NCBI RefSeq assembly: GCF_023028225.1
Contig: NZ_CP095482.1
Coordinates: 2,728,001-2,792,000, forward strand
Length of the DNA: 64,000 nucleotides
Origin: Halorientalis litorea
GTDB lineage: Archaea > Halobacteriota > Halobacteria > Halobacteriales > Haloarculaceae
Direction of reading: 5' to 3'
Shown here: positions 1,398 to 9,983 of the stretch, piece by piece
Layout of the letters: every line of letters begins with the position of its first letter
Position numbering within the stretch: position 1 is the first letter of the stretch
Program-made: the position numbers and the translations under genes
The notes under the pieces: generated by a model
Seen by the model: only the letters and a program-made list of their open reading frames with translations
Told to the model about the DNA's origin: nothing
The model's database searches: none

Positions 1398-2815
1398 TCG
1401 TCTGACTTCGCTCGCACCCGCTCGCCGTCGGCAGTCTCGGGGAACACCTTCCCGGGGTTGAGCGTGTCTTTGGGGTCGAACGCGCGCTTTATCGCCCGCA
1501 TCGCCTCGACGCTGTCCGCGCCGTGTTCGAGTTCGAGGTACTGCCGTTTCCCGCGCCCGACGCCGTGTTCCCCGGTACAGGTCCCACCCATCTCGATGGC
1601 ACGCTCGACGACTTTCCCGTAGACTTCCTCGCCCTCCGCCACGTCCTCTGGGTCGGAGTAGTCCACGAGGACGCTGTAGTGGACGTTCCCGTCGCCGGCG
1701 TGGCCGAAGCAGGGGATTGTCTTGTCGTACTCCTCGCCGAGTTCCTTCGCGTAGCGGATGATGTCCGGGAGTTTGCTGATGGGGACCGTCACGTCGCCCG
1801 CGTGAATCGGCAACTGCTTGGGGTCCCACGAGCGGGTAGCGAACGCCAGTTCCCGCCGGGCCTGCCAGAGTTCGTCCATCGACTCCTCGTCGGCCATCTC
1901 GAACTGGTCTACGTCGTGGGCCTCGAAGATAGAGCGACAGAACTCGATTTCCTCCTCGATGCCGTGGTTGGCGTGGAACTCCACGAACGTCATCGGCGTG
2001 TCGGGCAGGTCCAAGTCGAGGTAGTCGTTTGCCATCATCGCGCTCACGTCGTCCACGAGTTCGATTTTCGCCACGTCGACGCCCGAGCGCACGGCGTCGA
2101 AGACGGCCTCGGTGGCGTCGTCGAGCGTCGGGAAGATGGCCCGGCCGCCCCGTATCTGCTCGGGCCGCCCTTCGAGTTCGAGCGTCGCCCGCGTGACGAC
2201 GCCGAGCGTCCCCTCGCTCCCGATGAGGAGGTTCTTCAGATTGTATCCGCTGGACGTTTTGACCGCCTTCGACCCGGCCGAAATCACGGAGCCGTCCGCC
2301 AGCACGACTTCCAGTTCGAGGACCCAGTCGGCCACCTCGCCGTACTTGACCGTCTGCATCCCGCTGGCGTCGTTGGCTATCATCCCGCCGATGGTCGAGA
2401 TGTCCCCCGAGGATGGGAGTGGCGGGAAGAACAGGCCGTCTGAGGCCGCGGCCTCGTCGACGGCCGACCCCATGACGCCCGGTTGCACGTCGATTTGGAA
2501 GTCGTCGGGCCGCACGTCGAGTATCTCGTCCATCCGGGTGAGGTCCATGCTGATACCCTCGTACTCCGGGACGGCGTTGCCCTCCAGACTCGTCCCGGCG
2601 GCGTAGGGGGTGACCGGGACGCCCCGGTCGTTCGCCGCCGCGAGGACCGCGGACACGTCGTCGGTCGATTCGGGCCAGACGACGGCGTCGGGGGTCACGC
2701 CGGTCTGTTTCTGTTCGGCCGCCCAGTCGGCGGCGTGGTCATCGCGGTCCGAATCACCGAACGACACCTGCGCGTCGGGGAGAATCTCCGTCAGAAACGA
2801 GCAGTCGTGAGGCAT
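1394..2815 (-). CDS. FAD-linked oxidase, GlcD / D-lactate dehydrogenase type
   Basis: FAD-dependent 2-hydroxyacid oxidase or dehydrogenase of about 473 residues. The FAD-binding (PCMH) half carries PYAAGTSLEGNAVPE and IGGMIANDASGMQTVKYG, and the C-terminal FAD-oxidase domain ends with CTGEHGVGRGKRQYL and DPKDTLNPGKVFP, both typical of GlcD/Dld proteins. Glycolate or D-lactate is the likely substrate. No glcE or glcF partner is next to it, so it may work as a single polypeptide. An ATG at 2839 is in frame, but a TATA-like box at 2840-2847 lies about 28 bp before the ATG at 2815, so I chose 2815 as a leaderless start. Confidence 0.9.
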   Translation of the reverse strand: MPHDCSFLTEILPDAQVSFGDSDRDDHAADWAAEQKQTGVTPDAVVWPESTDDVSAVLAAANDRGVPVTPYAAGTSLEGNAVPEYEGISMDLTRMDEILDVRPDDFQIDVQPGVMGSAVDEAAASDGLFFPPLPSSGDISTIGGMIANDASGMQTVKYGEVADWVLELEVVLADGSVISAGSKAVKTSSGYNLKNLLIGSEGTLGVVTRATLELEGRPEQIRGGRAIFPTLDDATEAVFDAVRSGVDVAKIELVDDVSAMMANDYLDLDLPDTPMTFVEFHANHGIEEEIEFCRSIFEAHDVDQFEMADEESMDELWQARRELAFATRSWDPKQLPIHAGDVTVPISKLPDIIRYAKELGEEYDKTIPCFGHAGDGNVHYSVLVDYSDPEDVAEGEEVYGKVVERAIEMGGTCTGEHGVGRGKRQYLELEHGADSVEAMRAIKRAFDPKDTLNPGKVFPETADGERVRAKSDD

Positions 2816-2839
2816 ACTTCCAGTCTGCGGCCGCGCCAT

Positions 2840-2847
2840 CTTAAACG
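2840..2847 (-). promoter_or_regulatory. TATA box of the FAD oxidase gene
   Basis: On the minus strand this reads CGTTTAAG, centred about 28 bp upstream of the ATG at 2815. That is the usual box A distance for a leaderless haloarchaeal transcript, and it is what decides against the upstream ATG at 2839. Confidence 0.55.
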
Positions 2848-2956
2848 TATGTCGTAGCCGCCGCTAGCACTGGCCGCTACACACGACACTTCCCCGACGT
2901 GTTTTACCGAGCCGACATGGCGTATTTTTATACTCCGTGGTTACCATTGTTAATCT

Positions 2957-3928
2957 ATGAAGGTAGCAGAGGTAACGGAGTTCGGCGACAGCGACACACT
3001 CGAAATCACTGACGAGGAGAAACCGGAGCCGGGGACGGGCGAGGTACGCATCGAGGTGCGGGCCGCGGGCATCAACTTCGCGGACATCATGCAGCGGCGG
3101 GGTCACTATCAGGGCGGACCGGAGCCACCGTACGTTCCGGGGATGGAAGTCGCGGGCGTCGTCGACGCCGTCGGTGACGGCGTCGGCCGGAGCGTCGGCG
3201 ACGAGGTGATGGGCTTCGTCGAGGAAGGTGGCTACGCCGAGTACGCCAACGCCAACGCCGCCGGTCTGTTCGACATCCCCTCCGGGATGTCCTTCTCAGA
3301 GGGTGCTGGCTTTGCGGTACAGTTCCTCACCGCCCACAACTGCCTGTTCGAGTGGGGTGACCTGACCGAGGACGAGCAAGTGTTGATACACGCCGCCGCC
3401 GGCGGCGTCGGGACGGCCGCCGTCCAGCTCGCCAGCAACGCCGGTGCCGAGGTGTTCGGTACCGCCTCCACCGACGAGAAGCTGTCCCTCGCCGAAGAGT
3501 TGGGCTGTGACCACCCCATCCAGTACACTGAGACGGACTTCGTGGAGGCTGTCAACGACGCGACGGACGGCGACGGCGTCGACCTCGTGTTGGACGGCAT
3601 CGGCGGCGAGACGACCACCGAGAGCCTGAAGGCACTCTCGCACTTCGGCCGGATGGTCTCGTTCGGGGCTGCCTCCGGCGAACCTGGACAGCCGAACACG
3701 GCCGACCTCCTGTTCAACAACCACACGGTCATCGGCTACCACCTCGGACAGGCGATGTACCGTGACCCCGGCCGCGTGATGGCCGCGGTGCCGAACCTGA
3801 CCGAGCAACTCGAAACCGGTGCCCTCGAGGTCATCGTCGGGCACGAGTTCGACCTGAGCGAGGCCGCCGAGGCCCACCAGTTCATCGAGGACCGCAAGTC
3901 GAGCGGCAAGGTCGTTCTCGTTCCCTGA
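2957..3928 (+). CDS. NADPH:quinone oxidoreductase-like zinc-independent MDR protein
   Basis: Medium-chain dehydrogenase/reductase of 323 residues, quinone oxidoreductase branch. The N-terminal GroES-like fold has AAGINFADIMQRRGHY, the Rossmann fold has HAAAGGVGTAAVQLA, and the C-terminus has the family end RKSSGKVVLVP. No zinc-ligand cysteines of classical alcohol dehydrogenases are seen. It probably reduces quinones or enones with NADPH. The substrate is unknown. An AT-rich TATA-like stretch (2924-2932) sits about 28 bp before the ATG, fitting a leaderless message divergent from the FAD oxidase. Confidence 0.88.
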   Translation: MKVAEVTEFGDSDTLEITDEEKPEPGTGEVRIEVRAAGINFADIMQRRGHYQGGPEPPYVPGMEVAGVVDAVGDGVGRSVGDEVMGFVEEGGYAEYANANAAGLFDIPSGMSFSEGAGFAVQFLTAHNCLFEWGDLTEDEQVLIHAAAGGVGTAAVQLASNAGAEVFGTASTDEKLSLAEELGCDHPIQYTETDFVEAVNDATDGDGVDLVLDGIGGETTTESLKALSHFGRMVSFGAASGEPGQPNTADLLFNNHTVIGYHLGQAMYRDPGRVMAAVPNLTEQLETGALEVIVGHEFDLSEAAEAHQFIEDRKSSGKVVLVP

Positions 3929-3971
3929 ATCACCCGCCAGCGTTAGGACGGGGTAGCTCCAAGTGACGGCC

Positions 3972-4664
3972 ATGACACGGCAGGCCGTCGAGGAGACGTT
4001 CGAGGAGTTCATCGACGACATCATCGAGGTGTCGCTGTCGGAGTTCGACGTCGTCGCGGCCTTGCAAGGGGGTTCGAACGTCGGGAGCCGCCTCGTCAGC
4101 AACCTCCTCAAAAACAGCGACCGCCTCAACCGGAAGGTCATCCAGCCGGAACTGGCGGACTACCGGAACCAAGTGACGACGCAGTTCGGCGTGTTGCTCG
4201 ACTACGCCGAGGACGACGGGGCGACGTTCGCGGAGTATCGCGACGCGGTGCTCGAACATGAGGTTTACTACCACCAACTGCGCGATGACGTGTCCGAACA
4301 GCGACGGGAGGAAATCGTCGAGGCTCTGTTGACCCGTCAGCGTGACCTCATCGAGGCCGCACAACCCCTCGTCGACTCCCCGGAGTCGGAGTTCTGGGCG
4401 GCGGCCGAGGACAGCATCGACTACGAACGCGCGACCGACCTCGTGGAACAGCACTTCACGTTCACCGACCCGCTTCGGGAGTACCCCGACGCCTTCCGGT
4501 TCGACGTGGCTGTCGACACCGGCGACATCGTTCCGGGACTGTTCTCCATCGGCTTCCCGACAGTGACAATCGAGTACACAGACGAGGTGGTGCGAGCACT
4601 CCAAGCGGCGGAGGCTACCGTCGTGGAGCGGACGCTCGAAGAGGTCGACCGCCGGTTCGCCTGA
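3972..4664 (+). CDS. Conserved-looking acidic protein of unknown function
   Basis: A 230-residue acidic, mostly helical protein that I do not recognise. It has no signal peptide and no clear membrane span. One moderately hydrophobic patch, DIVPGLFSIGFPTVTIEYTDEVV, sits near the C-terminus. I chose the ATG at 3972 over the GTG at 3963 because it begins the natural sequence MTRQAVEETFEEF and has an AT-rich element about 27 bp upstream. It follows the quinone oxidoreductase after 43 bp and converges with mptE with a 6-bp gap. Codon usage matches its neighbours, so it is very likely a real gene. Confidence 0.7.
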   Translation: MTRQAVEETFEEFIDDIIEVSLSEFDVVAALQGGSNVGSRLVSNLLKNSDRLNRKVIQPELADYRNQVTTQFGVLLDYAEDDGATFAEYRDAVLEHEVYYHQLRDDVSEQRREEIVEALLTRQRDLIEAAQPLVDSPESEFWAAAEDSIDYERATDLVEQHFTFTDPLREYPDAFRFDVAVDTGDIVPGLFSIGFPTVTIEYTDEVVRALQAAEATVVERTLEEVDRRFA

Positions 4665-4670
4665 CTGCCG

Positions 4671-5363
4671 TCAGCCGTCGACCGGGAGCGGGTCAGTGTC
4701 GATGCCCGCGCGCCTGCCGTCGAGCAGACCGAACCGCTCATTCCGGCGGCGTTCCAGCCAGTAGAGGAGTCGCTCGGCCCACGCGAGTTTCCGTGCCTTC
4801 ATCCCGTCTACGTTCGGGTCCTCGAACTCCCAGCCCACGAACTTCAGCCTGTCCGCGCCGAAGTGGTCGGCGAAGAACGCCGCCCTGTCCCCGTCGGTGA
4901 AGCCGCCGAAGTTCTCGACTGGTCCCGCCGGTGCGGCCTGCGTCGTCGGCAGGACGCGCCCGCTCGGTAACTCGGGGACGTACCGCTCGACGGCCGGAAC
5001 GTTGTCGCCGTGGGCGTGCGCCACGACGGTGACGCCCTGTTCCGCGAGGGGGGCCGCCCGCTCTGGGGCACCGTCGAAGTCCGTCACGAGATAGTCGACG
5101 CCGACGCCCGCCGACTGGAGGCGGTCGGCGGCCGACGACGCTGCAACCACCGCGTCGGCGGCCGCGGCCGCGTCTGCCTCGGCTTCGAGCGAGGGGGCGG
5201 CCCCGGCAATCGCCACGTCCGCACCGTCGAAGTCCACGCGTGCAGTATCGAACGGAGCGACTAGGTCGGCCAGTACGTCGCGCGCGCGCCTGTCCGCCCC
5301 CCGGCCGAACCCGAAGTCCGCGAGGATTGACTCGTACACTGGCTCCCACGCCTCGAAATCCAT
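4671..5363 (-). CDS. mptE: 6-hydroxymethyl-7,8-dihydropterin pyrophosphokinase MptE
   Basis: Archaeal (DUF115-type) 6-hydroxymethylpterin diphosphokinase, which makes the activated pterin for tetrahydrofolate or methanopterin-type cofactors. The 230-residue protein carries the family motifs VDYLVTDFDG and VVAHAHGDN, then the segment NFGGFTDGDRAAFFADHFGA and the helix GMKARKLAWAERLLYWLE. The frame extends upstream to 5417, but the ATG at 5363 begins MDFEAWEPVYESIL as in the family and has a TATA box at 5388-5396, 29 bp away. A large inverted repeat (5404-5451) lies just upstream of that promoter. Confidence 0.9.
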   Translation of the reverse strand: MDFEAWEPVYESILADFGFGRGADRRARDVLADLVAPFDTARVDFDGADVAIAGAAPSLEAEADAAAAADAVVAASSAADRLQSAGVGVDYLVTDFDGAPERAAPLAEQGVTVVAHAHGDNVPAVERYVPELPSGRVLPTTQAAPAGPVENFGGFTDGDRAAFFADHFGADRLKFVGWEFEDPNVDGMKARKLAWAERLLYWLERRRNERFGLLDGRRAGIDTDPLPVDG

Positions 5364-5387
5364 AGCTGTTGCTCGGTGTTCGACGCC

Positions 5388-5396
5388 TATATAAAT
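5388..5396 (-). promoter_or_regulatory. TATA box of mptE
   Basis: Plus-strand TATATAAAT, read as ATTTATATA on the coding strand, centred 29 bp before the chosen ATG at 5363. It decides the start codon. Confidence 0.65.
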
Positions 5397-5403
5397 CGGG
5401 ACG

Positions 5404-5451
5404 AGCCGAAATGGCACGACCTGGTACCCCTACCCGGGTGCCCTTTCGGCT
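5404..5451. repeat. Large imperfect inverted repeat upstream of mptE
   Basis: Arms AGCCGAAATGGCAC (5404-5417) and GTGCCCTTTCGGCT (5438-5451) pair at 13 of 14 positions around a 20-nt loop. It begins about 8 bp upstream of the mptE TATA box, so it could be an operator or a transcribed hairpin from the region to its right. It also marks the border between core genome and the accessory stretch. Confidence 0.6.
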
Positions 5452-5952
5452 TTCACGCGGAAGTTCATGCGCATCTGCCATAAGTTTTCTCTTAGTCAGA
5501 CGGCAAATCTCCGCTCTCGGTGTGTGAGTTGCCCCCGCACGCCCGTCTCGGCCCGTGAGCGTCTGACATCTGTCACATACTCGAACTCCTGAAATCGGTG
5601 TGGAGTGTCTGGGCCGTCAGTTCGTTGGGTTAGCTCTGCAGAAGGCGAGTTAGGGACGCTCACGCAGGGAGGGGCGTCGAGATTTTCTGATCCTCGTTCT
5701 ACACACGTAGCCGGAACATGCCGCGTGCAATTTGACCCGGCGTCGAGGATACTCCGGGCTACTCGGTGCCGGTCGTGGCTGAAGGCCAGCACGGTTTTCA
5801 AGAAGTGGACGTATCCAGCGGGGTGGCAGGCCGGATCTGTTACAATTCGGGTGCTACGCCGAGGAACCGACTAAGAGCAACTACCACCGGCATACTCTCC
5901 AGAAATATGCTTAGCCATGCGTTACACTTTTCACTGCGCGGTCTTCGGGCGG
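5452..5952. other. 500-bp stretch with no recognisable gene
   Basis: Between the inverted repeat near mptE and the end of vapC no frame on either strand gives a convincing protein. The longest frames (about 90-100 codons) have poor haloarchaeal composition, rich in Cys, Ser and Arg and poor in acidic residues. Base composition looks less GC-rich than the flanking genes. It may be decayed mobile DNA belonging with the recombinase remnant at 6.6-6.8 kb. No tRNA-like fold was seen. Confidence 0.5.
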
Positions 5953-6345
5953 TCAGTTCTCGTGCAGGTTCGTGACGGTCATCAGGTCTTCGAGGTGGGA
6001 AGTTTGGAAGTCAGAATCGGCGACCACGAACTCAGCACCAGTTGAGCGGGCGGTGGCGGCTATAAGCGCGTCTGGTGTCGTCAGACGGTCGCCGTCGCTC
6101 ATCACTTCGTCTTGGAGCCGAAGGGCCTCAAGAGTTATTTCCTCTGTTAAATCAAGGGCCTGAACCCCGCCAAAATCACCGCGCAACCCCTCTATGTCGG
6201 TCGTCCCTGACCCGAGCCTGTTCTGAATCACTTCGTATACGCAGATAGTCGAAGTGAAAAACGGTTCACGCCCATCAAGATACTCGACTGCGTAATCCGA
6301 ACCTTGCAGGTAGTCGATGATGGCCGACGAATCGAGAAACGTCAT
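5953..6345 (-). CDS. vapC: VapC-type PIN-domain ribonuclease toxin
   Basis: A 130-residue PIN-domain protein, the toxin half of a type II toxin-antitoxin pair and probably a tRNA- or mRNA-cleaving RNase. It starts MTFLDSSAIIDYLQG, and the four acidic active-site positions are visible: D5, E38 (VYEVI), D92 (TTPDALIAA) and D110/D112 (VVADSDF). The open frame runs further upstream to 6417, but the ATG at 6345 overlaps the antitoxin stop by ATGA and matches the family start. It lies in the accessory stretch beside a recombinase remnant. All catalytic residues are present, so the toxin looks intact. Confidence 0.93.
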   Translation of the reverse strand: MTFLDSSAIIDYLQGSDYAVEYLDGREPFFTSTICVYEVIQNRLGSGTTDIEGLRGDFGGVQALDLTEEITLEALRLQDEVMSDGDRLTTPDALIAATARSTGAEFVVADSDFQTSHLEDLMTVTNLHEN

Positions 6346-6548
6346 CGGCGGTCGTCCCACTCCTCTCGCGATTCTCGGATTCGCTCTTTGGCGCGTTCTG
6401 CCCCTTCTTCTGACCATGCTCCAGCCTTGATGGGTTCTTCATCGGCAGTCACTCGCATCAAGAACTCGTCCCACGTCTCGTCGTCTCTTTTTCGTCCGTC
6501 GAGTCGGTCTTTCGTCTCGGAATCAACCGGGATTGAGGTTCGGCTCAT
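6342..6548 (-). CDS. vapB: VapB-type antitoxin
   Basis: A 68-residue antitoxin overlapping vapC by 4 bp. The N-terminus MSRTSIPVDSETKDRLDG looks like the short DNA-binding (ribbon-helix-helix or similar) segment of haloarchaeal VapB proteins. The C-terminus AERAKERIRESREEWDDRR is a charged helix suited to wrap the PIN toxin. A perfect palindrome, AATTCA-TAG-TGAATT, lies 4-18 bp upstream of the ATG, within the core promoter, and is the likely autoregulatory operator. Confidence 0.85.
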   Translation of the reverse strand: MSRTSIPVDSETKDRLDGRKRDDETWDEFLMRVTADEEPIKAGAWSEEGAERAKERIRESREEWDDRR

Positions 6549-6551
6549 ACT

Positions 6552-6566
6552 AATTCATAGTGAATT
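6552..6566. promoter_or_regulatory. Palindromic operator candidate of vapBC
   Basis: AATTCA (6552-6557), TAG, TGAATT (6561-6566) is a perfect inverted repeat beginning 4 bp upstream of the vapB ATG and overlapping the AT-rich core promoter (GATAAATTCA on the coding strand). Type II antitoxins usually bind such sites to repress their own operon. The assignment is by position and symmetry only. Confidence 0.55.
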
Positions 6567-6590
6567 TATCGTATTGTATCTTCCGACGAC

Positions 6591-6815
6591 TTACACCGTG
6601 TCGGAGTGGTCGTACTTCTGTTCGGTCGTCGCCAGCCGCGAGTGCCTGAGCCGACTCCTGACGTTGTAGCGGATGTACCCGTCGTAAGCTGGTGGAGCAT
6701 CCGGTAGGCAACGCTGTGCCGGAGCGTGTGAGCTGTCACGTCGTCGCGTCTCGGACGCGTCTTCGAGCAACCGCAGTTCGGTCCCGTGGTAAGTGACCGC
6801 GATCGAGGAGAGCAT
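6591..6815 (-). pseudogene. Tyrosine recombinase (integrase) C-terminal remnant, frameshifted
   Basis: Decayed XerC/D-like integrase. On the minus strand one frame encodes VTAHTLRHSVAYRML (6739-6695), the H-x-x-R box. A different frame encodes RLRHSRLATTEQKYDHSDTV (6653-6591), which holds the second conserved histidine and the YDH catalytic tyrosine, followed by a stop. The two pieces join only if a frameshift occurred around 6655-6694. The first catalytic arginine region and the N-terminal core-binding domain are absent, cut off before the plus-strand gene at 6944. It cannot encode an active recombinase. Together with vapBC it marks a former integrated element. Confidence 0.82.
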
Positions 6816-6943
6816 GCCCCCGCTCGGCCCTGTGTACCCACGAACGGTGTTGTGCTCTCGTTCTCGGCCACAGGCTGCGAGATGAACCCCAATCGCTGGG
6901 GGAAACCCGCGCCGCTTATGCCCGTCACTCGGCTACGTCGGTT

Positions 6944-7468
6944 ATGGGCAAGGTCAACATCGGCTTGCGTGGATGGCGGTTCGAGGAGTCGGAGGTGTTC
7001 GACGCGGACGGTGACCTCCGACCGCTCGGGACGATGGAACCGGACACCCGCGAGCGAATCGTTCGCCTCGCCGCGATGATGGGCGAACCCTGTGACGCCT
7101 GCTACCTGATTCACGGCGACGAGGACATCGAACAGTGCAACGTCGCGCGGGTCATCTACGGCGAACCGCTCGGCGAGGTGTTGCTCTGTACGGACCATGA
7201 ACCGGATTTCCTCTACTGGTTCCGCGAGGCGGGCGGCAAAGCGTACGCCGGCGACACCGAACTCGAAGACGCCTTCCACGAGTGGTTCGCCGACGGCGGC
7301 CGCGCACCCGAGGATTACGGGAGCCTCGACCACGTCAACACCGACCCCGACGAGATTCCCGACCCGGACCCGGCCGAGGAACTCCCGTCGCTCGAAGAGG
7401 AACTGGAGAAGATGGAAGACGAGAGCTTGGACGACCTCGGCGTCGACTTGGACGACCTCGACCTATGA
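6944..7468 (+). CDS. Haloarchaeal conserved protein upstream of trmJ
   Basis: A 174-residue acidic protein of unknown function. The first 110 residues look globular, with [18 protein letters not shown] giving a C-x2-C pair and a third cysteine that could bind a metal. The last 40 residues are an acidic tail ([16 protein letters not shown]) typical of salt-adapted proteins. A TATA-like CTTATG element lies about 27 bp before the ATG. It overlaps trmJ by 4 bp (ATGA), so the two are co-translated and may share a role in tRNA modification. That last point is inference from position. Confidence 0.8.
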
Positions 7469-8181
7469 TTTCGGTGGCGGTGGTCGGCGCGACGGAACCG
7501 GGCAACGTCGGCACCATCGCCCGGTCGATGAAGAACTTCGGCCTCGGGGACCTGTTGCTCGTGGACCCGCCGGAACTGGACCCCGACGGCGAGGCCTACG
7601 GCTTCGCCGGTCAAGCCCGCGAGGACGTACTCCCCGAAGCGGACACTGTCACCTTCGACCACCTCGTCGAGCACTACTACACCGTCGGCTGTACGGCCAC
7701 GACGAACGAGGACGCGACGAACCACGTCCGGTACCCGTTCCTGACCCCCGCGGACCTCACCGAGGAGTTACGCGGCGTCGACACCGACGTGGCAATCGTC
7801 TTCGGCCGCGAACGCGTCGGTCTCACCAACGACGAACTCGCGCGCCTCGACCGAGTGTGTTCCATCCCGGCCAGCGACGACTATCCCGTGTTGAACCTCG
7901 GACAGGCGGCGACGGTGGTGCTGTACGAACTCCGGTCGCTGACGGTCGACGCGACACAACACCCCGAAGAAGCACACGAGCGGGCCGACGAGCGCGAAAT
8001 CGAAGCCCTCCACGACCAGTTCGCGGACATGCTCGTCGGCATCGGCCACCCGGAACCAAAACGTGCCAAGGCCGGGCGACTCTGGCGGCGACTGCTCGGC
8101 CGGGCACACCCGACCGGCCGCGAAGTCAAGACGCTCCGCGGTATCCTACGACGGGCGACACAGCGAGCGAACGAAGAGTGA
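7465..8181 (+). CDS. trmJ: TrmJ-type tRNA 2'-O-methyltransferase (SPOUT)
   Basis: SpoU/TrmH-family RNA ribose methyltransferase of 238 residues, TrmJ type, which methylates the 2'-OH of a nucleotide (position 32 in known archaeal TrmJ). Motif 1 is [15 protein letters not shown], motif 2 is [17 protein letters not shown], and motif 3, the SAM-binding knot, is [16 protein letters not shown]. The C-terminal 70 residues form the helical extension found in TrmJ ([14 protein letters not shown], then [14 protein letters not shown]). The start overlaps the upstream gene's stop by ATGA. It converges with the secreted-protein gene at 8192. Confidence 0.88.
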
Positions 8182-8191
8182 AACCGCCGTA

Positions 8192-9934
8192 CTACGCCAT
8201 CGACCCGCCGGACGGTCCGAGCGACAACTCGTAGGCAAACGTCGCCTCACGACTGAAACTCGTGGCGACGATGGTGTACTCGCCGTCCGTCGAGAGCGTG
8301 GTCTGAATCCGGGAGTCGAGGCCTTGGTAGTCGTCGTTCTCGGCGACGACAGTGCCGTTGGGTGCCAACAGGATGAGGTAGGTGTCGTCCTCGCTCTCCA
8401 TCTCGATGGTGATGTCGTCCCCTGCCTCGCCGTCGAAGGTGACCGGTTCGTAGAACCCGCGATAGGCCCGCGATTCGGGGTCGTCCTCGCTTATCGCACC
8501 CTCACGGGTCTCGCCGTACTCGATGTTCCGCAGGTCGGCACTCAGGTCCACATCCTCTTCGACCGACAGCGACAGCGAGTAGTCGAACGTCGCCTCCCGG
8601 TCGTAACTGGTCGCGATGATGGTGTACTCACCGTCCTCGGGGAGCGGGGTCTGAATCCGGGAGTCCAGGCCTCTGTGGTCGTCGTTCTCGGCGACGACGT
8701 CGCCGTTCGGACCGTAGAGGATGAGATAGGAATCGTCGTCGCTCTCCATCTCGATGGTCACGTCCTCGCCCGCTTGGCCGTCGAAGGTGACTGGCTCGAA
8801 GTGGCCACGGAGGAACGGTGCGCGAGGGTCGTTCTCTTCGATGCGACTCTCACGGGTCTGGCCGGGCGCGATGCTCCGGAGGTCCGGCCCCGCGTCCGTC
8901 CCGGCCCCGACGGTTTCGACCGATAGCTCGTAGGGGAAGGTGTCCTCACGGCTGAAACTCGTGGCGACGATAGTGTACTCGCCGTCTTCGGTGAGCGTCA
9001 CTCGCTCGATGGTCGAGTTCAGACCGTCGCTGTCGTCGTTCTCGGCGACGACAGTCCCGCTCGGGTCGAGCAGTTGCAGGTACGTATCACCGGGTTGGGA
9101 CCCCATCTCGATGCGGACCGTCTGCCCGGCATCACCGTCGAAGGTGACCGGTTCGTAGAACCCGCGTCGGTCCTCGTCGTACGGGTCCGTCTTGTCGAGT
9201 TCACCCGTCTCGGTGCTGTTGAGGTCGATAGACCGGAGGTCCGCACCCTCGGTGTCGAGCGTCTGCAGTCGGAGCGTGTAGTCGAACGTCGCCTCGGAGC
9301 GGAACCCGGCGGCGACGACGGTGTACTCGCCGTCCTCGGGAAGAACGATGCCACGGACTGCCGCGTTCAGGCCGTTTTCGGTGTCGTCGTTCTCGGCGAT
9401 GATGTCACCGTCGGGGCCCACGACGAACAGGTACGGGTCGGCGGGGCGACCCTCGTCCGAGCGTCGCGGCGGCCGCGGCGGGTACGGTTCGCCCCCCGTT
9501 CCCCGGTAGCCAGCCCGCATCTCGACGCCGACGACGTCACCCGCAGACCCCTCGAAGGTGAGTGGTTCGTGGTATCCGCGGTAGGACTCCGACTGCGGGT
9601 CGTCGTCGTCGATGCTGCTCCTGATGGTGTCACCGTACGCTACCTCGCGAGCGTCCTGTACCGGGTCACTGACGGCACCACCGGCGTCGCTGGCACTGGC
9701 ACTGCCGCCGCCGCTCGCCGACCCGCTCGTCTGGACCGGGGCTGGCGTCAACGTGGCCTGCTGTGTCGCGCCGGTGTCTCCGGGGAGTCCCGTTCCCGCA
9801 ACCGGGCCAGCGACCAGCCCGGCGACGAGGAGCGTGCCCCCGGCCAGCAGCAGTATCGCTGTGAGTCGCTTCGTCGTGAACCTGTTCGACGTCTCGTCCG
9901 ACTGGTCGCTTCCGGGCCACTTGGAGGGCTTCAT
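8192..9934 (-). CDS. Secreted or surface protein with four PPC-like repeats
   Basis: A 580-residue exported protein. The N-terminus has a basic stretch, a hydrophobic segment (about residues 24-46) and then a Ser/Gly/Thr-rich linker. Four tandem domains of about 110 residues follow, each with the pattern YRGFYEPVTFDG-AG, then E-M, VVAENDD-GLDS-I and DGEYTIVATSF-REATF-Y-L. That resembles bacterial pre-peptidase C-terminal (PPC) domains. No catalytic domain is fused and no C-terminal anchor or sorting signal is seen. The role may be surface binding or salt-dependent adhesion. I chose the ATG at 9934 because its TATA-like element lies within an inverted repeat about 30 bp upstream. Confidence 0.78.
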   Translation of the reverse strand: MKPSKWPGSDQSDETSNRFTTKRLTAILLLAGGTLLVAGLVAGPVAGTGLPGDTGATQQATLTPAPVQTSGSASGGGSASASDAGGAVSDPVQDAREVAYGDTIRSSIDDDDPQSESYRGYHEPLTFEGSAGDVVGVEMRAGYRGTGGEPYPPRPPRRSDEGRPADPYLFVVGPDGDIIAENDDTENGLNAAVRGIVLPEDGEYTVVAAGFRSEATFDYTLRLQTLDTEGADLRSIDLNSTETGELDKTDPYDEDRRGFYEPVTFDGDAGQTVRIEMGSQPGDTYLQLLDPSGTVVAENDDSDGLNSTIERVTLTEDGEYTIVATSFSREDTFPYELSVETVGAGTDAGPDLRSIAPGQTRESRIEENDPRAPFLRGHFEPVTFDGQAGEDVTIEMESDDDSYLILYGPNGDVVAENDDHRGLDSRIQTPLPEDGEYTIIATSYDREATFDYSLSLSVEEDVDLSADLRNIEYGETREGAISEDDPESRAYRGFYEPVTFDGEAGDDITIEMESEDDTYLILLAPNGTVVAENDDYQGLDSRIQTTLSTDGEYTIVATSFSREATFAYELSLGPSGGSMA

Positions 9935-9954
9935 ACGAACAGGCACACGTACAG

Positions 9955-9983
9955 ACACTCCAGATAAAGTGTTTCTGGAGTGT
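9955..9983. promoter_or_regulatory. Perfect inverted repeat over the promoter of the PPC-repeat gene
   Basis: ACACTCCAGA (9955-9964), 9-nt spacer, TCTGGAGTGT (9974-9983): perfect 10-bp arms. The TATA-like GATAAA (coding strand TTTATC, 9963-9968) sits at the inner edge of one arm, about 30 bp before the ATG at 9934. It is either an operator that blocks TBP or TFB binding, or the hairpin end of the upstream gene, which stops at 9995. Confidence 0.65.

Follow-up and report, generated by a model that had tools for sequence, protein, structure and literature searches.

The mptE-trmJ interval of Halorientalis litorea

How did a toxin-antitoxin pair, a scrap of a tyrosine recombinase and a stretch without recognisable genes come to lie beside the folate gene mptE in Halorientalis litorea, and what is the large inverted repeat found next to them? 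We addressed this question in a 64,000-nt stretch of contig NZ_CP095482.1, referred to below as the window, whose own numbering is used throughout for the locus. The original prediction had seen here a mobile element that entered a neutral gap and decayed, vapBC being kept by addiction and the inverted repeat forming the element's border. The joint explanation which we consider likely is a different one, namely that a folP gene has been displaced from this place and that the region spared by the exchange carries a conserved structured leader RNA of mptE. The locus comprises the following features.

4671-5363, minus strand: mptE, 6-hydroxymethyl-dihydropterin diphosphokinase, MptE-like (PF01973, E 2.1e-13)
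5388-5395, minus strand: second TATA-like box TTTATATA, about 24 nt before mptE
5405-5450, minus strand: conserved hairpin RNA, proposed mptE leader, with the loop GGGUAGGGGUAC at 5424-5435
5480-5491, minus strand: conserved promoter-like box GAGAAAACTTAT (BRE + TATA), the hairpin lying downstream of it
5504-5952, no strand assigned: non-coding DNA in folP's place, 449 bp without a recognisable gene
5953-6345, minus strand: vapC toxin gene (PIN domain PF01850, E 4.6e-11); the start is our choice, the open reading frame as listed beginning further upstream
6342-6548, minus strand: vapB antitoxin gene (DUF7557, E 3.1e-6; VAPB_antitox 22.5 bits, below the cut-off of 27.9)
6591-6747, minus strand: tyrosine recombinase scrap, the last ~52 codons, frameshifted
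6748-6900, no strand assigned: unattributed DNA (weak plasmid match for 6744-6905, tblastn E 0.8)
6913-6919, plus strand: TATA-like box CGCTTAT before the 174-aa gene, kept and aligned with the congeners, presumably the promoter of that gene
6944-7468, plus strand: conserved 174-aa gene, 53-82% identical across 20 relatives' intervals that were selected for holding it
7465-8181, plus strand: trmJ-like SpoU methylase gene (PF00588, E 8.8e-24)

A Pfam search with the 174-aa gene beside trmJ gave no match. Beyond the trmJ-like gene, a 588-aa open reading frame on the minus strand (8192-9958) contains internal repeats that are spaced ~348 nt apart and are 71-82% alike.

Apparent replacement of a type A folP gene

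A DNA search with positions 4671-8180 over 58 genomes yielded matches in 55. From the 57 other genomes, 20 intervals (one per genome, 7 from congeners) were fetched in which mptE and the pair formed by the 174-aa gene and trmJ lie close together. Each of the 20 contains a folP-like gene, referred to here as type A (373-429 aa, ~380 aa), beside mptE and on the same strand. In the window, ~1.4 kb of low-GC DNA (5504-6900) is found where the relatives have this gene. Homology with the congeners extends on the left side up to about 5501-5503 and is found again from near 6905 on the right, indicating that the upstream regions of both neighbours survive and that folP is gone. With the FolP proteins of 15 relatives as queries, no folP remnant beyond chance was detected in the window's interval, the best E value among the matches listed being 0.057, and the idea of a folP relic was rejected on these matches. 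Since the fetched relatives have folP at this place and none of them displays an empty site, the DNA was exchanged. By this comparison the locus is a replacement of type A folP, not an insertion into an empty site: as the aligned DNA shows, type A folP is absent, its place being taken by ~1.4 kb of DNA that is low in GC and has partly decayed.

Among the fetched intervals, the stretch that separates folP from the 174-aa gene is itself a hot spot. Five congeners (L034, L035, L037, L038, and L039) carry here a gene for a protein of 708-741 aa that by eye resembles PAS/kinase proteins, one congener (L036) has a 268-aa membrane protein, and two other relatives (L045, L046) have a lipoprotein-like gene of 370-371 aa.

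The genome of the window harbours two Pterin_bind genes, neither of which is at the locus: FolCP at C1:2237472 and a 382-aa protein at C1:2174101. The latter (C1:2174101-2175246, ~560 kb from the locus) is a FolP of a second type, type B, and is 47-49% identical to the folP products of the congeners; those of six congeners are 79-82% identical to that of genome G001. Five of the 57 other genomes (G011, G012, G018, G032, and G042) possess type B, with scores of 416-459 bits at 55-60% identity, and all remaining FolP matches among the 57 genomes score 332 bits or less. Haloarcula also has type B FolP (56-58% identity). None of the six type B genomes among the 58, that of the window included, has a second short FolP. 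In a tree of 29 rows, three of type B (the window's genome and two Haloarcula) and 26 of type A, the two types were separated with 100/100 support.

We infer an order of events from this distribution: type B FolP may have been gained elsewhere in the genome first, by which the native type A copy would have become dispensable. Recombination with mobile DNA could then have removed folP and spared the upstream region of mptE. An alternative, which concerns only this displacement and not the RNA, is that type A folP was first lost by simple deletion and that the vapBC/integrase DNA arrived later in unrelated events. The pieces of the segment differ in their relatives and could not be traced to a common element, as such a history would predict. 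However, the control regions on both flanks are kept, for which a single exchange event would be the simpler account, and we regard the deletion-first course as a genuine but lesser possibility.

Nature of the vapBC/integrase segment

In several respects the segment itself is as originally described. Both vapC and vapB are intact, and the gene for the PIN toxin is preceded by an overlapping antitoxin gene, the arrangement of a VapBC toxin-antitoxin module. The recombinase C-terminus, said to be split in two frames, is real but small (157 bp); it keeps the H-x-x-R box and the YDH tyrosine, and a 2-bp gap between the boxes shifts the frame. The DNA reported to be free of genes over about 500 bp measures 449 bp, and the GC content, proposed as a check, is lower in vapC (0.547), vapB (0.565) and the non-coding part (0.586) than in the whole window (0.668).

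A Pfam search with the recombinase fragments alone gave no match. At the DNA level, the closest intact integrase occurs in the same genome (C1:1885550; L003:7079-7705) and is 87% identical to the scrap over 157 bp. The 17-kb locus around it has only the integrase in common with the window's segment, all other DNA matches being 26 nt or shorter, and thus lends no support to vapBC and the scrap having come as one element. The intact integrase copy adjoins proteins of the virus families phrog_2231 and phrog_3232 and a DNA methyltransferase. The region C1:1878000-1895000 (L003) contains, at 2303-9354, a provirus-like cluster with the intact 208-aa integrase and a C5 DNA methyltransferase, which may be pleolipovirus-like.

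The non-coding part gave one 60-bp match (84%) to a congener and two weak matches (E ~0.009) in the 57 other genomes. Plasmid and phage searches with the segment returned 12 records with relatives of vapBC or the integrase at ~65-70% identity, and a single exact match of 34 bp to the vapBC of a Natrinema plasmid. Among open reading frames of at least 70 aa in the 20 relatives' intervals, none clustered with vapC. The vapBC/integrase segment thus looks specific to this genome among the fetched intervals; the same arrangement in distant haloarchaea, which would have pointed to an ancestral state, was not encountered there.

The intact vapBC, the recombinase scrap, the low GC content and the absence of the segment from the other fetched intervals are what a decayed mobile element in a neutral gap would leave behind. 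Against this origin, the fetched relatives have folP at the site and none is empty, no exact direct repeat of at least 7 nt that could represent att sites was found between 5481-5530 and 6861-6945, and the integrase scrap comprises only ~52 codons. The inverted repeat exists (5405-5450), but it is kept at this place in distant haloarchaea, across the class, with a promoter-like box upstream of it, and was ruled out as the border of an element. What remains of the original prediction is therefore a segment that looks genome-specific, without the empty site and the bordering repeat and with a joint origin of vapBC and the scrap, as well as retention of vapBC by addiction, as conjecture, and we consider a mobile element of this kind an improbable explanation of the locus.

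A conserved structured RNA upstream of mptE

Folded with its flanks on the plus strand, the repeat at 5405-5450 reached -30.7 kcal/mol (z = -2.26), and 6 of 200 shuffled sequences were as good. Taken singly, the window's sequence thus exceeds its shuffles in stability by little, and the argument for an RNA is built on comparison. Of the 20 fetched intervals, 19 have the hairpin at the corresponding position, and these include every one of the 7 congeners. Two covariance models were used, R1 built from 20 sequences and the hairpin-only model R2 from 43 sequences. R1 matched 40 of the 58 relatives' genomes and 351 of 391 sampled genomes of the class (~90%, nearly always once; 40 genomes without a match), the two sets overlapping and both including the window's own genome. 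With R2, one copy of 34-69 bits was obtained in 40 of the 58 genomes, along with 17 further matches of 22-26 bits, 9 of which were the antisense of the same hairpin. Over the phylum, R2 matched 30 of 196 genomes, all within the window's order, so that no copy was seen outside the haloarchaea among these 196 by this model, which is the weaker one and misses at least one genome found by R1 (G061).

The stem was examined in an alignment of 63 sequences (A3), which replaced an earlier wide alignment from R1 (A2) that had included 9 weak antisense matches. In A3, which was fitted to the model and thus leans towards its structure, 93.1% of the cells in the stem are paired, compared to 84.1% in shuffles. 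Ten of 16 pairs have changed on both sides, and there are 76 such cells against 22.7 in shuffles; none of 500 shuffles reached the observed values. When the partner was slid by 1-3 columns as a control, pairing did not exceed 46%. A MAFFT alignment of 43 sequences that was not fitted to the structure likewise displayed two-sided changes, in 8 of 13 pairs. In 37 of the 63 sequences, the model's outermost pair does not form. The loop GGGUAGGGGUAC is nearly invariant, each of its letters being at least 95% conserved. The conserved secondary structure with compensatory changes that is typical of structured leaders is hence present, and these comparisons demonstrate that the hairpin is a conserved structured RNA in most sampled Halobacteria.

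In Rfam 15, no match to the element was obtained with window positions 5300-6950 up to an E value of 10, the only hit being a weak sR14 match at 6383-6446 within vapB. Three diverse loci, searched up to an E value of 5, also gave no match on the element and only a weak one away from it. On the element, no Rfam family reached its curated score in these searches. Guide RNAs of the box C/D or H/ACA class are defined by their box motifs and a guide pocket; Rfam returned no guide-RNA match on the element, and the C/D and H/ACA boxes and the guide pocket were judged by eye only.

Promoter-like box and position relative to mptE

The box GAGAAAACTTAT is located ahead of the hairpin at 5491-5480 on the mptE strand. 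None of the 63 aligned sequences departs from the box in the GAAA and TTAT letters, and the spacing between box and hairpin core is 42-46 nt. TTWT and CGAAA are given as haloarchaeal promoter motifs in the available part of a transcriptome study (PMC4983044), and GAGAAAACTTAT presumably has promoter activity.

Of 80 named loci that were found by means of mptE, 59 contain the RNA, in all 59 cases directly upstream of mptE and on its strand; those without it include Halococcus, Haladaptatus, and methanogens. We then considered these 80 loci together with 80 that were fetched by handle, some of the 160 stemming from the same genomes. The RNA is present in 128 of them. A folP gene, counted by homology because a statistic based on open reading frames was confused by spurious GC-rich frames, lies upstream in 110 of these 128, and in all 110 the gap from stop to start is 105-597 nt. 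Of the 32 loci that lack the RNA, 8 (L271-L278) are not haloarchaeal, one was unusable, and in one (L196) the core was recognised by pattern only, with no R1 match; folP is upstream in 17 of the 32, where the gap always lies between -4 and 54 nt. The remaining loci (18 with and 15 without the RNA) have no folP directly upstream and are outside this comparison. Presence of the RNA at gaps of 105-597 nt and its absence at -4 to 54 nt are as expected of a cis-acting 5′ leader.

In seven relatives whose mptE abuts folP (G010, G013, G027, G029, G030, G037, and G045), the whole genomes are without a strong copy. Conversely, the RNA stays with mptE where folP is not adjacent, as in G012, G018, G032, G044, and Haloferax elongans. 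The element therefore has both the constant place upstream of mptE and the absence upon abutment with folP that characterise a structured leader. Both the structure of the RNA and its link to mptE are demonstrated by the compared loci; on the same basis a leader role of the hairpin is well supported, and we think that the mptE mRNA most probably begins with this RNA as its 5′ leader, through which mptE would be controlled in cis.

The distance from the core to the mptE start varies widely (38-329 nt). At four loci (L043, L162, L181, and L182), only 15-18 nt separate the hairpin from the start.

The RNA might instead be the product of an independent small RNA gene acting in trans beside an mptE that is transcribed leaderless from its own promoter. 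The hairpin has its own promoter-like box, the core can be as far as 329 nt from the start, and 27 of 118 distinct loci have a TTWT box at 26-34 nt from the mptE start. The window has a box of this kind as well. At such loci mptE might be transcribed without a leader, and the hairpin might belong to a small RNA of its own. For H. volcanii, moreover, small RNAs immediately preceding coding genes are described in the accessible text of one report (PMC6490895). However, the RNA is missing in 17 of 17 loci in which mptE abuts folP, with no strong copy elsewhere in the seven whole genomes, and in the loci read the RNA is always upstream of mptE on the mptE strand. In addition, the hairpin-to-start distance is less than ~30 nt in 20 of the 118 distinct loci, which leaves hardly any room for another promoter. 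We thus consider a separate small RNA unlikely and favour the 5′ leader.

A short peptide encoded by the region in place of a structured RNA is very improbable: one frame runs open across the hairpin in 53 of the 63 sequences, where shuffles would give 22.5, but a conserved start codon is lacking, only 62% have the G that would make an ATG of the TATA box, the distance from box to core varies by 1-4 nt, the loops are of different lengths, and the paired changes fit a stem.

For the 5′ leader, the distance from the TATA-like box suggests that the transcript would begin at or just before the hairpin, the conserved promoter giving rise to an mRNA that starts with it. A protein or small molecule might then act at the loop and change the output of mptE in cis via mRNA stability, translation or early termination. 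Guessing from gene function, candidate ligands would be a pterin- or folate-type metabolite or MptE itself. That the hairpin is a native riboswitch-like sensor of pterin or folate, controlling MptE and thereby folate synthesis across the Halobacteria, is a tentative and somewhat doubtful extension of this model.

Comparison with known systems

As in xenologous (non-orthologous) gene displacement, one type of FolP is missing and a divergent one is encoded elsewhere. The present case differs from the usual one in that the vacated place holds a toxin-antitoxin pair and a recombinase scrap. On a small scale, it illustrates how a gene for biosynthesis can be exchanged from within its cluster and the presumed control RNA of the neighbour retained. 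The VapBC modules of haloarchaeal plasmids and chromosomes belong to the same families as the one found here, the plasmid relatives having ~65% DNA identity, and compared with them the window's pair shows nothing unusual.

We found no description of the mptE-upstream RNA in the literature, where it may be an unnamed entry in supplementary H. volcanii transcript lists, and the hairpin is apparently an undescribed RNA element. The H. volcanii intergenic sRNAs are also short intergenic RNAs with a promoter of their own; as far as the accessible text of that study goes, 22 of 27 sRNAs are confined to H. volcanii and 3 occur in more than 10 other genomes (PMC3956466). A further set comprises 22 conserved ncRNAs of Halobacteria, for which the available portion of the article mentions no function (PMC7002113). 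According to the part of the transcriptome study at hand, 72% of the protein-coding transcripts of Haloferax volcanii are leaderless, 111 genes have both leadered and leaderless mRNAs, and translational control via structured leaders is not considered typical of haloarchaea (PMC4983044). With a structured RNA preceding a single folate gene in ~90% of the sampled haloarchaeal genomes, there would be a clear exception to the leaderless rule. The RNA is amenable to testing in a laboratory model strain and might reveal by what means folate or pterin status is sensed in archaea.

Several traits are shared with cis-regulatory 5′ leaders and riboswitches of bacteria and archaea, an example being the bacterial tetrahydrofolate riboswitch: in each case a structured RNA whose stem covaries and whose loop is invariant sits immediately before a gene for biosynthesis. 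Unlike known riboswitches, the mptE RNA has no Rfam match at the thresholds used and is confined to haloarchaea among the 196 genomes of the phylum. The crcB motif is presented as a leader of the riboswitch type in bacteria and archaea in the accessible section of its description (PMC2864571). Archaeal ribosomal-protein leaders include, in the portion of the source available, the S15 leader of Halobacteria (PMC7247131). This, too, is a conserved structured leader of haloarchaea; the ribosomal-protein leaders, however, precede ribosomal-protein genes, whereas the RNA described here precedes mptE.
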